Positions 59,862-64,000 of a DNA stretch of 64,000 bases are shown here, in pieces. Numbering within the stretch: position 1 is the stretch's first letter; the number at the start of each line of letters is the position of its first letter. The position numbers were made by a program, and so were the translations under genes. Origin of the DNA: Anaerolineaceae bacterium (GTDB taxonomy: Bacteria > Chloroflexota > Anaerolineae > Anaerolineales > Anaerolineaceae); assembly GCA_029265815.1 (NCBI GenBank), contig JAJUGU010000001.1, positions 124,001 to 188,000 on the forward strand. The letters are read 5' to 3'. The notes below the pieces were generated by a model. The model had not been told where the DNA came from, ran no database searches, and saw only the letters and a program-made list of their open reading frames with translations.

Positions 59862-61070
59862 ATGGATAAACCGATTATTAGTTTGCTCGATGATGATGAG
59901 GAAGAATTTCCAGCGATCGCCAGGTTAATTGAACTTGGACGACAAAAGTCGTATGTTACGATCGATGATATTCTTCAATTCTTTCCAGAAGCAGAACAAG
60001 ATGTTGAACAGCTTGAGGAAACTTTTGCTGCTTTGATGAGTGCTGGTATTCCTTATATTGAAGATGAAGTTATTCATGAGGAGCCCAGCGATGAAGATTT
60101 GATTGTTGAAGAGGAAGTCACTGAAGCAAAAGCAACTACCAGTGATGATCTTGAAAATATTGACACTGATGATACCATCGGTCTATACCTTAAAGAAGTT
60201 AGCCGTGTTCCTCTACTCAATGCCGAAGAAGAAGTTGAACTGGCTCAACGGATTGAGCGCGGGCGTATGGCCCGGGAGGAACTCGCCCGTGGAAACGTCA
60301 ATAGCCGGCGTCGAATGGAATTGCGAAAGTTAATTGAAGATGGCTGGGCAGCACGCGAACACCTAATTACCGCAAATTCTCGCCTTGTAATCAGTGTAGC
60401 CAAGAAATATATGGGGCGAGGTGTACCATTTCTTGATCTGATCCAGGAAGGTAACATTGGGCTTATACGTGCGACAAAGAAATTTGATTACCGGCGTGGA
60501 CATAAATTCAGCACCTATGCCACCTGGTGGATCAGACAGGCAGTCACCCGTGCTATTGCAGACCAGGGTCGAACAATTCGCGTCCCAGTACATATGGGTG
60601 ATCAAATCAATAAACTTCTGCGAATTCAACATCAATTAACACAGCGATTAGGACGTGAACCTTCTGTGGATGAATTGGCGATCGCGCTTGATGTGCCACC
60701 AAAAAAAGTTGAAAACATGATCCAGGTAGCAAGACGCCCGCTCTCACTGGAGACACCTACTGACGATGAAGAAGATTCAGTTCTGGGAGACTTCATTGAG
60801 GATGACGAAGCGCCCCCCCCTGATGATTCTGCAACATATAACCTCCTGAAAGAACATTTGGAAGATGTGTTGAATGGTTTACCACCACGCGAAGTTAGAA
60901 TTCTTCAATTACGGTATGGCTTGTTGGACGGACAGGCATATACTCTAGAAGAAGTTGGAAGAAAAATGGGGGTCACACGTGAGAGGGTGCGGCAAATCGA
61001 GGCTCAGGCACTCAGCCGACTTAGGCATCCATCAATACGACGTAAACTTCGCGATTATCTCGGAGAATAA
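59862..61070 (+). CDS. rpoD: Primary RNA polymerase sigma factor (sigma-70)
   Basis: Housekeeping-type sigma factor of 402 residues. It has a short acidic region 1 ([20 protein letters not shown]), region 1.2 ([16 protein letters not shown]), a complete region 2 with the -10 recognition helix ([31 protein letters not shown]), region 3, and region 4 with the -35 helix-turn-helix ([23 protein letters not shown]). The full domain set makes it a primary or group 2 factor. Other Chloroflexota often have more than one such protein, so it may not be the only one. Confidence 0.95.
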
Positions 61071-61105
61071 AAAATCAACGGCATACTATCATGCCGTTGA
61101 TTTTT
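61070..61105 (+). terminator. Terminator after rpoD
   Basis: A 15-bp stem, AAAAATCAACGGCAT (61070-61084) with its complement at 61091-61105, loop ACTATC, then T-rich sequence. Strong intrinsic terminator overlapping the last base of the rpoD stop codon. Confidence 0.93.
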
Positions 61106-61162
61106 TACATCTAATGTATAATATTTTTGTTATCAGTCTCCTACTACCCGGAGGAATATGCT

Positions 61163-64000
61163 ATGGTAATGATTTCACTTCGCGATTACTACCGTGAAAT
61201 CGAGTCTTTGATCGAAGCGTCTCAAAACGATGAGGCGATTTTCCATTGCATGGTTATTTTACAGACTTTTCCGAAATCAATAGAAACTTATCGAAACCTT
61301 GGTAAAGCTCTTCTTGAAAGCAAAAGGTATTCAGAAGCTGCAGAAGTATTTTCTAAAATATTGACAGTTATTCCCGATGATTTCATCACGCATGTTGGAT
61401 TAAGTGTCATTAAAGAAGAAGAACGTGATTTGGATGCTGCCATTTGGCATATGGAACAGGCATTTGAATTGCAGCCTTCTAACCTTGCCTTACAGGAAGA
61501 GTTGCGTCGTCTGTTTGGTAGACGCGACGGGGTTCCGCCAACAAAGATTCGATTGACTCGGGGTGCTTTAGTGAAAATGTATGCCCGTGGTGAATTACAC
61601 CAACAGGCAATCGCTGAACTTAAATCAGTTCTGAAGGATGAGCCTTCACGAGTTGACTACCAGGCATTATTGGCAAAAATGTATATGGTATCAAGTGCAC
61701 ATACAGATGCAGTAGAATTAGCCTCCTCGATTATTAGCAATTTCCCATATTGTTTCGAAGCTAACCGAATATTAGATGAACTTTTAGAAAACACTGATTC
61801 ATTTAATGGGGTCAATATTTATCGTAAACGCCTTGTTGAATTGGATCCATATTATCAGTACGTAGATGCGCTAACCCCAAATGTTGCTGATGTTCCTGCT
61901 GAAAAGGTGATGCTTGAGAAAAAGATCTTTTCTGCATCTGTTGATACTGAATCCAGAGTTTCTGATTGGGCTAAACAGATTGATATTAATTGGAAACCAA
62001 AAGATGTATTCATAGAGACTGAAACAGTAGATCTTCTTGACCAGGTTGAAGCCTTTAATGGTGAAGCAAAAGAACCTGTTGTTGAACAACCAGTTAGCCC
62101 ATTTATCGGTGAGGTCATACCTGAGTTAAATAATCAGATACTTAATGGTCTAGAAGAACCAGAAGCACTACCAGATTGGATTGCAAATGCAGGATGGACT
62201 CGGTCAACAGAATCATCAAATGCTGAAATTGAAAAAAATATTTCACTTCCTTTCGAAGAAGAAGATAACCAACCGAACGAACCGGCCGTTCCATCACAGG
62301 AACTACCTGAGTGGTTGAGAGCTCTGGGTTCAACACCCGATCGTGAAGAGAATAATTGTATAGAAAACGATATTTCTTCTGGTACGATAGAAGAACCATC
62401 AAAAAAATTGCCCACTGAACAGAAATCAACGGAAGCAGAGTCAGAAGAATTACCTGAATGGCTAAGTGCCATTCTTCCAGAAGATAAATCAGAGGAACCT
62501 GATCAAGAAAATAATTCTGAAAAAGAATCTTTTTCTGAGGAATTACCCGATTGGCTTAAATCACTTAAACCAGCAGAAGAAACTGAACATTTGGAAGATT
62601 TTAAAGATGAAATATCAGAAAAATTCTCAAGCAATCAAGATGATTTATCTCATTCAGAAGAATTACCAGACTGGTTAAGAGCGCTATCAGATGAAGATCA
62701 ACTCACCTCTTTAAATGGTATCAATCAAGATAGATCGAAAAATCTATCAGAATCAAACACTGAAGATGACCAGAAGCCCCTTTCTTCTGAAGAAATGAAG
62801 GAATCCCTCGAAAATTGGATCGAAGAAACAAGAGCGGAAACAGAATCAGAAGAAAGAGAAGAGAAGGTCAAAGAATCAGAAGTTCGGCCTTCAGACTGGT
62901 TAAATCAGTTTATTGAGTCAAACGGTTCAGGAAAAAATGGATCCTCAAATGAAAATCTTCCAGATTGGTTAAAAGAGTTTGAATCTGAAGATAAAGGTAA
63001 GACTGAAGGAAAATCTGAACAACCTGACTGGTTATCTTCGCTTAAAGACAACGAAATTGAACCAGAAGATATTACGATAGAAAAAGTCCCCGATTTTTCA
63101 GAAACACCTCTTGAACCAGATATTGCACATAACATTGATGAGATTCTTAATGATCTAAACAATCAACCGAAAAACGTTGAGGAAGAAAAGAACGCTTTTC
63201 CACCTGAAGTACTTTCGCATGCCGCTCCTGAAATTCAAGGGCAAGCTGAACAAATGACAACTATGGAGGAAGCGTTAGAATCGAAGCCATCAATTCCATC
63301 GTGGGTAAAAAACATTCTTAGCGCTTCAACTTCCAAAGACAGTGAAGCCGCCCCAACTTATACACAAAGTGTTGAGGATGAATTTTCAACTCCCATACCT
63401 GATTTGGCTATTGATACTACCAGCGGCATGAAAGAAAAAGAAGAAGAAATCATCGAACCATTGATTACTGATCTTCCAAATGCCACAGAGCATACGGGAG
63501 CGATTTCTGGAAATTCAAAGGATGAATTATTATCATGGCTCAGAGAAGTTGCTCCTTCTGATGAGGTATTGCCTGACGAGATCATTGAACCAGAGTCTAT
63601 AGAAAAAGAAATCGCAGAAAAGCAGCCTTCTGAAATACCATTCGTTGAAGATTTAGTGAGAGGTGGTCTATCATCTGAGATTGAACATGAGGATATTGTC
63701 GAAGCGTCTTCTGATGAAACAATAGAAACAGATTTCTCTGACCGATTATCAGAATTATTACAGCAACCTATTGATGAAAATATTTCGCTGGAAGAAATAG
63801 AGGAATCAACATCTCTTCCTACTGGAGAAGCGAACATTGAGAAAAATGTTGAACAGATTATCTCTGAATTAGCGATTGAAGCAGAAAAGTCAGAAATCCC
63901 TCTTGATCATAATCTTCACTCAACTGAGCAACCTGCCATAGAACAAGACCCCTTGCGTAGAATTGAGTCTGAAGTCGAGTCAGGTAATTTTATTTCATTA
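61163..64000 (+). CDS. TPR protein with long acidic LPxWL-repeat tail (3'-open at window end)
   Basis: Reading frame of at least 946 codons with no stop before the window edge. ATG 61163 has GGAGGA seven bases upstream. Residues 1-230 are tetratricopeptide repeats (SIETYRNLGKALLESKRYSEAAEVF, AAIWHMEQAFELQPSN, ELHQQAIAELKSVLKDEP). From about 310 on the chain is very rich in Glu, Asp, Ser and Pro with little hydrophobic content, apart from about ten regularly spaced short motifs of the form (E)LP(D/E)WL+xL, e.g. around 62170, 62305, 62450, 62545, 62665, 62890, 62955, 63020, 63295 and 63530. No signal peptide. Probably a cytoplasmic scaffold whose motifs bind a repeated partner. Confidence 0.88.
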   Translation, partial: MVMISLRDYYREIESLIEASQNDEAIFHCMVILQTFPKSIETYRNLGKALLESKRYSEAAEVFSKILTVIPDDFITHVGLSVIKEEERDLDAAIWHMEQAFELQPSNLALQEELRRLFGRRDGVPPTKIRLTRGALVKMYARGELHQQAIAELKSVLKDEPSRVDYQALLAKMYMVSSAHTDAVELASSIISNFPYCFEANRILDELLENTDSFNGVNIYRKRLVELDPYYQYVDALTPNVADVPAEKVMLEKKIFSASVDTESRVSDWAKQIDINWKPKDVFIETETVDLLDQVEAFNGEAKEPVVEQPVSPFIGEVIPELNNQILNGLEEPEALPDWIANAGWTRSTESSNAEIEKNISLPFEEEDNQPNEPAVPSQELPEWLRALGSTPDREENNCIENDISSGTIEEPSKKLPTEQKSTEAESEELPEWLSAILPEDKSEEPDQENNSEKESFSEELPDWLKSLKPAEETEHLEDFKDEISEKFSSNQDDLSHSEELPDWLRALSDEDQLTSLNGINQDRSKNLSESNTEDDQKPLSSEEMKESLENWIEETRAETESEEREEKVKESEVRPSDWLNQFIESNGSGKNGSSNENLPDWLKEFESEDKGKTEGKSEQPDWLSSLKDNEIEPEDITIEKVPDFSETPLEPDIAHNIDEILNDLNNQPKNVEEEKNAFPPEVLSHAAPEIQGQAEQMTTMEEALESKPSIPSWVKNILSASTSKDSEAAPTYTQSVEDEFSTPIPDLAIDTTSGMKEKEEEIIEPLITDLPNATEHTGAISGNSKDELLSWLREVAPSDEVLPDEIIEPESIEKEIAEKQPSEIPFVEDLVRGGLSSEIEHEDIVEASSDETIETDFSDRLSELLQQPIDENISLEEIEESTSLPTGEANIEKNVEQIISELAIEAEKSEIPLDHNLHSTEQPAIEQDPLRRIESEVESGNFISL

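Follow-up and report, generated by a model that had tools for sequence, protein, structure and literature searches.

A gene at positions 61163-64000 (forward strand) of the window, the 64,000-nucleotide stretch of Anaerolineaceae DNA analysed here, encodes a protein in which two TPR modules are joined by a long acidic linker that carries an array of short PxWL motifs. The same motif recurs on an unrelated zinc-ribbon membrane protein. The motif is under selection rather than a product of composition, and we favour a role in multivalent docking.

Gene context and domain organization

The open reading frame is genuine: a GGAGGA ribosome-binding site is located just 5' of the ATG at 61163, and this start lines up with the starts of the orthologues (41 sequences aligned over the first domain). 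The first 946 residues lie inside the window. That the gene continues beyond it, as supposed from the window sequence, was confirmed by extension to the stop: the complete protein has 1010 residues, with the last codon running to G000:C3:188192 and the stop to G000:C3:188195, and ndk begins 4 bases further on. On the other side, rpoD (59862-61070, forward strand) is the upstream neighbour kept in the same family. Just 3' of rpoD, a strong hairpin of 17 bp with a T run (61068-61107, forward strand; z-score -9.9) is probably the rpoD terminator; the array gene is therefore probably transcribed apart from rpoD. The sequence-only reading had placed the gene after rpoD, which holds for its own family; rpoD is upstream in 38 of 77 loci, whereas ndk, the more widely conserved neighbour, is directly downstream in 66 of the 69 testable loci.

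A Pfam search (TPR_19, 57.8 bits against a cut-off of 25) placed TPR repeats both at the N-terminus and at residues 965-1006. The profile score above gathering and the helix pairs predicted at both protein ends place the array protein in the TPR superfamily, and comparing its TPR part by fold and by sequence returned generic TPR proteins. As had been read, a TPR domain (residues 1-262; 61163-61948, forward strand) precedes the acidic region. This region, earlier taken for a tail, proves to be a linker (residues 263-938; 61949-63976, forward strand) with a net charge of -127 over its 676 residues, and the protein closes beyond the window with a second folded TPR module. Inspected by eye, the sequence has the order TPR, acidic linker, TPR, with no long hydrophobic stretch.

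An AlphaFold2 model of residues 1-520 exceeds a pLDDT of 90 over most of its first 250 residues and mostly stays below 50 beyond them, in line with the disorder previously supposed for the acidic region. Within the linker, short helices with local pLDDT peaks are predicted at the motifs (residues 338-342, 383-387 and 503-506). The model of the full-length orthologue L140 displays two folded ends with the same pattern of disorder and helices in between. This predicted pattern fits short helices that would fold upon binding.

The motif array and its conservation

The strict motif was defined as [LIVMF]PxW[LIVMF] and counted as [LIVMF]P[DESNTAGQ]W[LIVMF]. The linker contains seven strict copies, whereas shuffling the same 655 residues 20,000 times at constant composition produced 0.027 on average and never more than 3. 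All motifs are on the forward strand. The first two occupy fixed positions: LPDWI at W339 (context ALPDWI, 62168-62182), which is followed by a nearly invariant AGW, and LPEWL at W384 (ELPEWL, 62303-62317). These are followed by LPEWL at W433 (ELPEWL, 62450-62464), LPDWL at W464 (ELPDWL, 62543-62557), W504 (ELPDWL, 62663-62677) and W602 (NLPDWL, 62957-62971), and IPSWV at W714 (SIPSWV, 63293-63307). Relaxed forms are LENWI at W552 (SLENWI, 62807-62821), PSDWL at W579 (RPSDWL, 62888-62902), QPDWL at W623 (EQPDWL, 63020-63034) and LLSWL at W792 (ELLSWL, 63527-63541). With these included, the linker carries about 10-11 W elements spaced by about 21-91 residues, which agrees with the "about ten periodic LPxWL motifs" first described. 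The array consensus consists of PxW[LM], then K/R and then A/L-rich positions, and SEELPDWLKSLK is an example of a motif-type peptide of the array.

A search of 60 relatives gave matches in 51 of 61 genomes, and 41 extracted proteins contain 329 motifs where 1.9 are expected; 457 of their 730 linker tryptophans stand in a PxW context. A collection scan with an alignment query found 370 relatives, of which 80 loci were kept, including those of Anaerolinea thermolimosa, Bellilinea caldifistulae and Levilinea saccharolytica. According to the sequence-only reading, poor conservation among orthologues would have pointed to a composition-driven coincidence. The opposite was found, with the array kept across Anaerolineales (559 motifs in the 80 loci against 3.4 expected). 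The layout of N-terminal TPR, linker and the same C-terminal TPR module is retained in 65 complete orthologues. The conserved positions of the linker are mostly motif residues or their company (W269, W294, I/L336-P337-x-W339, A343-G344-W345, P382-x-W384, and P-x-W at 462-464 and 502-504), with P337, P382 and W384 of the fixed-position motifs conserved at about 97-100%. In several lineages the arrays have grown as near-identical tandem units. The linker of many orthologues also contains a second W element, distinct from PxWL, with the consensus AxAWLESLAAxxGAxxExLxTxP (A3 consensus).

A second carrier of the motif

Pattern scans of the own genome and six relatives revealed motifs in an acidic context in one other protein only, a zinc-ribbon membrane protein. 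It comprises a zinc ribbon (CPxC...CxxC), a long acidic disordered region, a hydrophobic segment, a conserved domain and a second hydrophobic segment, the two segments being read as transmembrane by eye. By the positive-inside rule, the side that bears the array is probably cytosolic. The conserved domain has no Pfam match, and neither the protein nor its C-terminal domain has a relative among solved structures. Thirty members total 149 motifs, where 2.3 would be expected, and some forms are tied to a position, such as PDWLxRIRxR following the zinc ribbon and PxWLxAMRPV ahead of the membrane domain. Other PDWL matches in the own genome fall in open reading frames that lack an acidic array, among them two paralogues that resemble HAD hydrolases by eye.

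The zinc-ribbon gene belongs to an operon that encodes DUF6754, a membrane protein, the zinc-ribbon protein, a further membrane protein and a MutL-family protein (L013:1004-6998, on G000:C16, in the own genome), often with a PIG-L-like gene upstream. The operon recurs across the phylum, being kept at each of the 16 loci examined at order or family level and at most of the distant ones. A literature search on DUF6754 returned no paper that mentions it.

Across 21 Anaerolineales genomes, the number of motifs in the TPR protein correlates with that in the zinc-ribbon protein (Spearman 0.68), as does motif density (0.64, P = 0.002). The values were 0.57 for number and 0.64 for density when the own genus was thinned to one genome, which is the sole adjustment for phylogeny. 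No convincing residue-level covariation emerged when motif variants were compared between the two families.

Loss and replacement of the array

Nine MAGs (G004, G006, G008, G010-G014 and G033), of which eight belong to the own genus, jointly lack the TPR gene, ndk and a close rpoD, and most of them show only a sigma factor of about 55% identity. Gaps in the MAGs could explain single joint absences, less easily all nine. The zinc-ribbon proteins read in these genomes mostly retain their motifs. In G024 (L350, C4 about 213000), the array protein follows rpoD and has lost the N-terminal TPR, keeping two motifs and the C-terminal TPR. The TPR proteins of G030 and G031 have no strict motif, and their zinc-ribbon proteins (truncated in G030, detected by profile search in G031) carry one PxWL copy each; G073 and G185 have neither array. 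From these cases it follows that neither protein needs the other to keep its motif, and that the N-terminal TPR is probably not the sole reader.

Among 301 Chloroflexota genomes, the TPR domain was found in 120 (E below 1e-20) and the zinc-ribbon domain in 70 (E below 1e-6). Searched at this depth, the motif array first noticed in the window holds within Anaerolineales and is replaced in the TPR protein of some families. In several families outside Anaerolineae (L405, L406, L408, L409, L412 and L417), the TPR linker has 6-30 copies of FSLxDLGLSxxEI in place of PxWL, and in these families the zinc-ribbon protein retains PxWL, with up to 63 PxW copies. Expansion is extreme in the zinc-ribbon proteins of L453 and L456, where short, nearly identical tandem units provide 62-63 PxW copies. 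The TPR linker of one f38 genome comprises 11 EEPDWMKQI-like units; in a profile search of the 301 genomes, those with a zinc-ribbon match included no f38 genome. Strict co-evolution of the two arrays was rejected, because the zinc-ribbon motif is unchanged where that of the TPR protein switches. The design of the scaffold is thus conserved, and the motif that it displays is replaceable.

Proposed multivalent docking and its alternatives

Of the "multivalent docking array" that the sequence-only reading had proposed, the selected array in a disordered chain is upheld by conservation, predicted disorder and the second carrier; docking itself is what we infer. In the explanation that we favour, at roughly even chances, a foldable W/L helix docks in many copies on a shared reader and so connects a TPR scaffold in the cytosol with a membrane complex. 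In its favour are the motif excess, the concentration of conserved linker positions at the motifs, the retained architecture with ndk alongside, the helices modelled at motifs, the second carrier with its conserved operon, and the correlation of copy number and density between the two families. The folded ends, namely the N-terminal TPR superhelix and the C-terminal TPR module, would hold or pair proteins, while the acidic disordered linker would display about ten copies of an amphipathic helix of the form [DE]-[LIV]-P-[DE]-W-[LM]-x-x-[LA]. Each helix would fold as its W and L faces dock in a groove of the partner, and many weak copies would provide avidity and gather several partner molecules. 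The same motif is found on the unrelated zinc-ribbon membrane protein, and a shared reader is therefore most likely; this putative reader would bind both proteins and recruit the TPR scaffold to the membrane complex specified by the operon of DUF6754 and MutL. Some observations speak against shared docking: FSLxDLGL linkers in TPR proteins occur beside PxWL zinc-ribbon proteins, so that the two are not always motif-matched; the PDWMKQI array of the TPR protein is found in an f38 genome, and no f38 genome is among those with a zinc-ribbon match; and the copy-number correlation is adjusted for phylogeny by the thinning of one genus only. It is also conceivable, though we put it forward tentatively, that PxWL, in up to dozens of copies on two unrelated conserved proteins, a novel reader domain and motif classes swapped between families constitute a docking code dedicated to Chloroflexota.

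Alternatively, the W/L motifs might act as homotypic stickers that bind one another weakly, with both array proteins condensing without a dedicated reader. The sticker-and-spacer pattern in an acidic disordered chain, the very elastic copy number (0 to 63), the replacement of the motif class by another hydrophobic repeat and the survival of either array where the other protein is missing are all consistent with such behaviour. We nevertheless consider it rather improbable, as the strict P-x-W-L order, with P and W at fixed places, is more specific than stickers require, and the net charge of the linker works against self-association.

TPR grooves bind short peptides, and the N-terminal TPR groove could read the motifs of its own linker, in cis or between chains, together with those of the zinc-ribbon protein. 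The fold matches of the TPR part include PEX5 TPR structures, and the motifs near the TPR domain are modelled at a pLDDT of about 70. Such self-reading is unlikely, however, given that G024 retains motifs in both proteins without an N-terminal TPR, that genomes of the own genus without the TPR gene still carry the zinc-ribbon motifs, and that the families with FSLxDLGL linkers retain the TPR domain with no PxWL in cis.

Membrane association, with W and L of the motif helices entering the inner membrane, has little likelihood. It would fit the membrane location of one carrier, the amphipathic W-containing helices implied by the motif consensus and the example of some PEX5 helices, which do insert into the membrane (PMC8086558), but the helices modelled at the motifs of the window protein are very short (4-5 residues) and strongly acidic, which is unfavourable on anionic membranes. 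Repeat slippage in a low-complexity linker, devoid of motif-specific function, would account for those arrays made of near-identical tandem copies and is very improbable, as the flanks vary while P-x-W-L stays in the window protein and many relatives, P337, P382 and W384 are nearly invariant, and the motif recurs independently in the zinc-ribbon family.

Relation to known systems

In PEX5, the membrane protein PEX14 reads WxxxF/Y helices located in a disordered region (PMC8086558). The array protein resembles PEX5 as a TPR protein with repeated short W-containing amphipathic helices in a disordered region. It differs in being bacterial and in carrying PxWL between two TPR modules, whereas WxxxF/Y is found in the N-terminal region of PEX5 and the TPR reads PTS1. 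The consensus of the array protein does not fit WxxxF/Y, as it has no aromatic residue at W+4. HubP and FimV combine a long acidic cytoplasmic region, little conserved and with repeats in HubP, with a C-terminal TPR domain (PMC12918733). The array protein likewise has a long acidic region, little conserved in sequence, and a C-terminal TPR, to which it adds an N-terminal TPR domain and the W motifs. The FimV model gave no match to the whole array protein (NCBIfam) or to three C-terminal modules at E values up to 1, and searches of Pfam and NCBIfam found no LysM match. Generic TPR scaffolds such as MamA share the TPR fold, and MamA matches are weak; NF040959 (NCBIfam) scores 48 bits, well below its cut-off of 200 bits. 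MamA is not known to have a long linker or motif array. By sequence, the array protein falls in neither the PEX5 nor the HubP/FimV family; it would work in a similar way, and PEX5-PEX14 and HubP/FimV may be regarded as its nearest working analogues.

A search of the open literature returned no description of this motif array, and LPDWL only in unrelated peptides. Large arrays of short linear motifs with dedicated reader domains are familiar from eukaryotes and rarely described in bacteria. Here, selection retains one motif in two unrelated proteins throughout a phylum that has been little studied, and the gain, loss and replacement of motif arrays are visible across hundreds of genomes. If the reader is found, it would open a new scaffold or membrane-organizing system, together with a natural experiment in the evolution of motif arrays.
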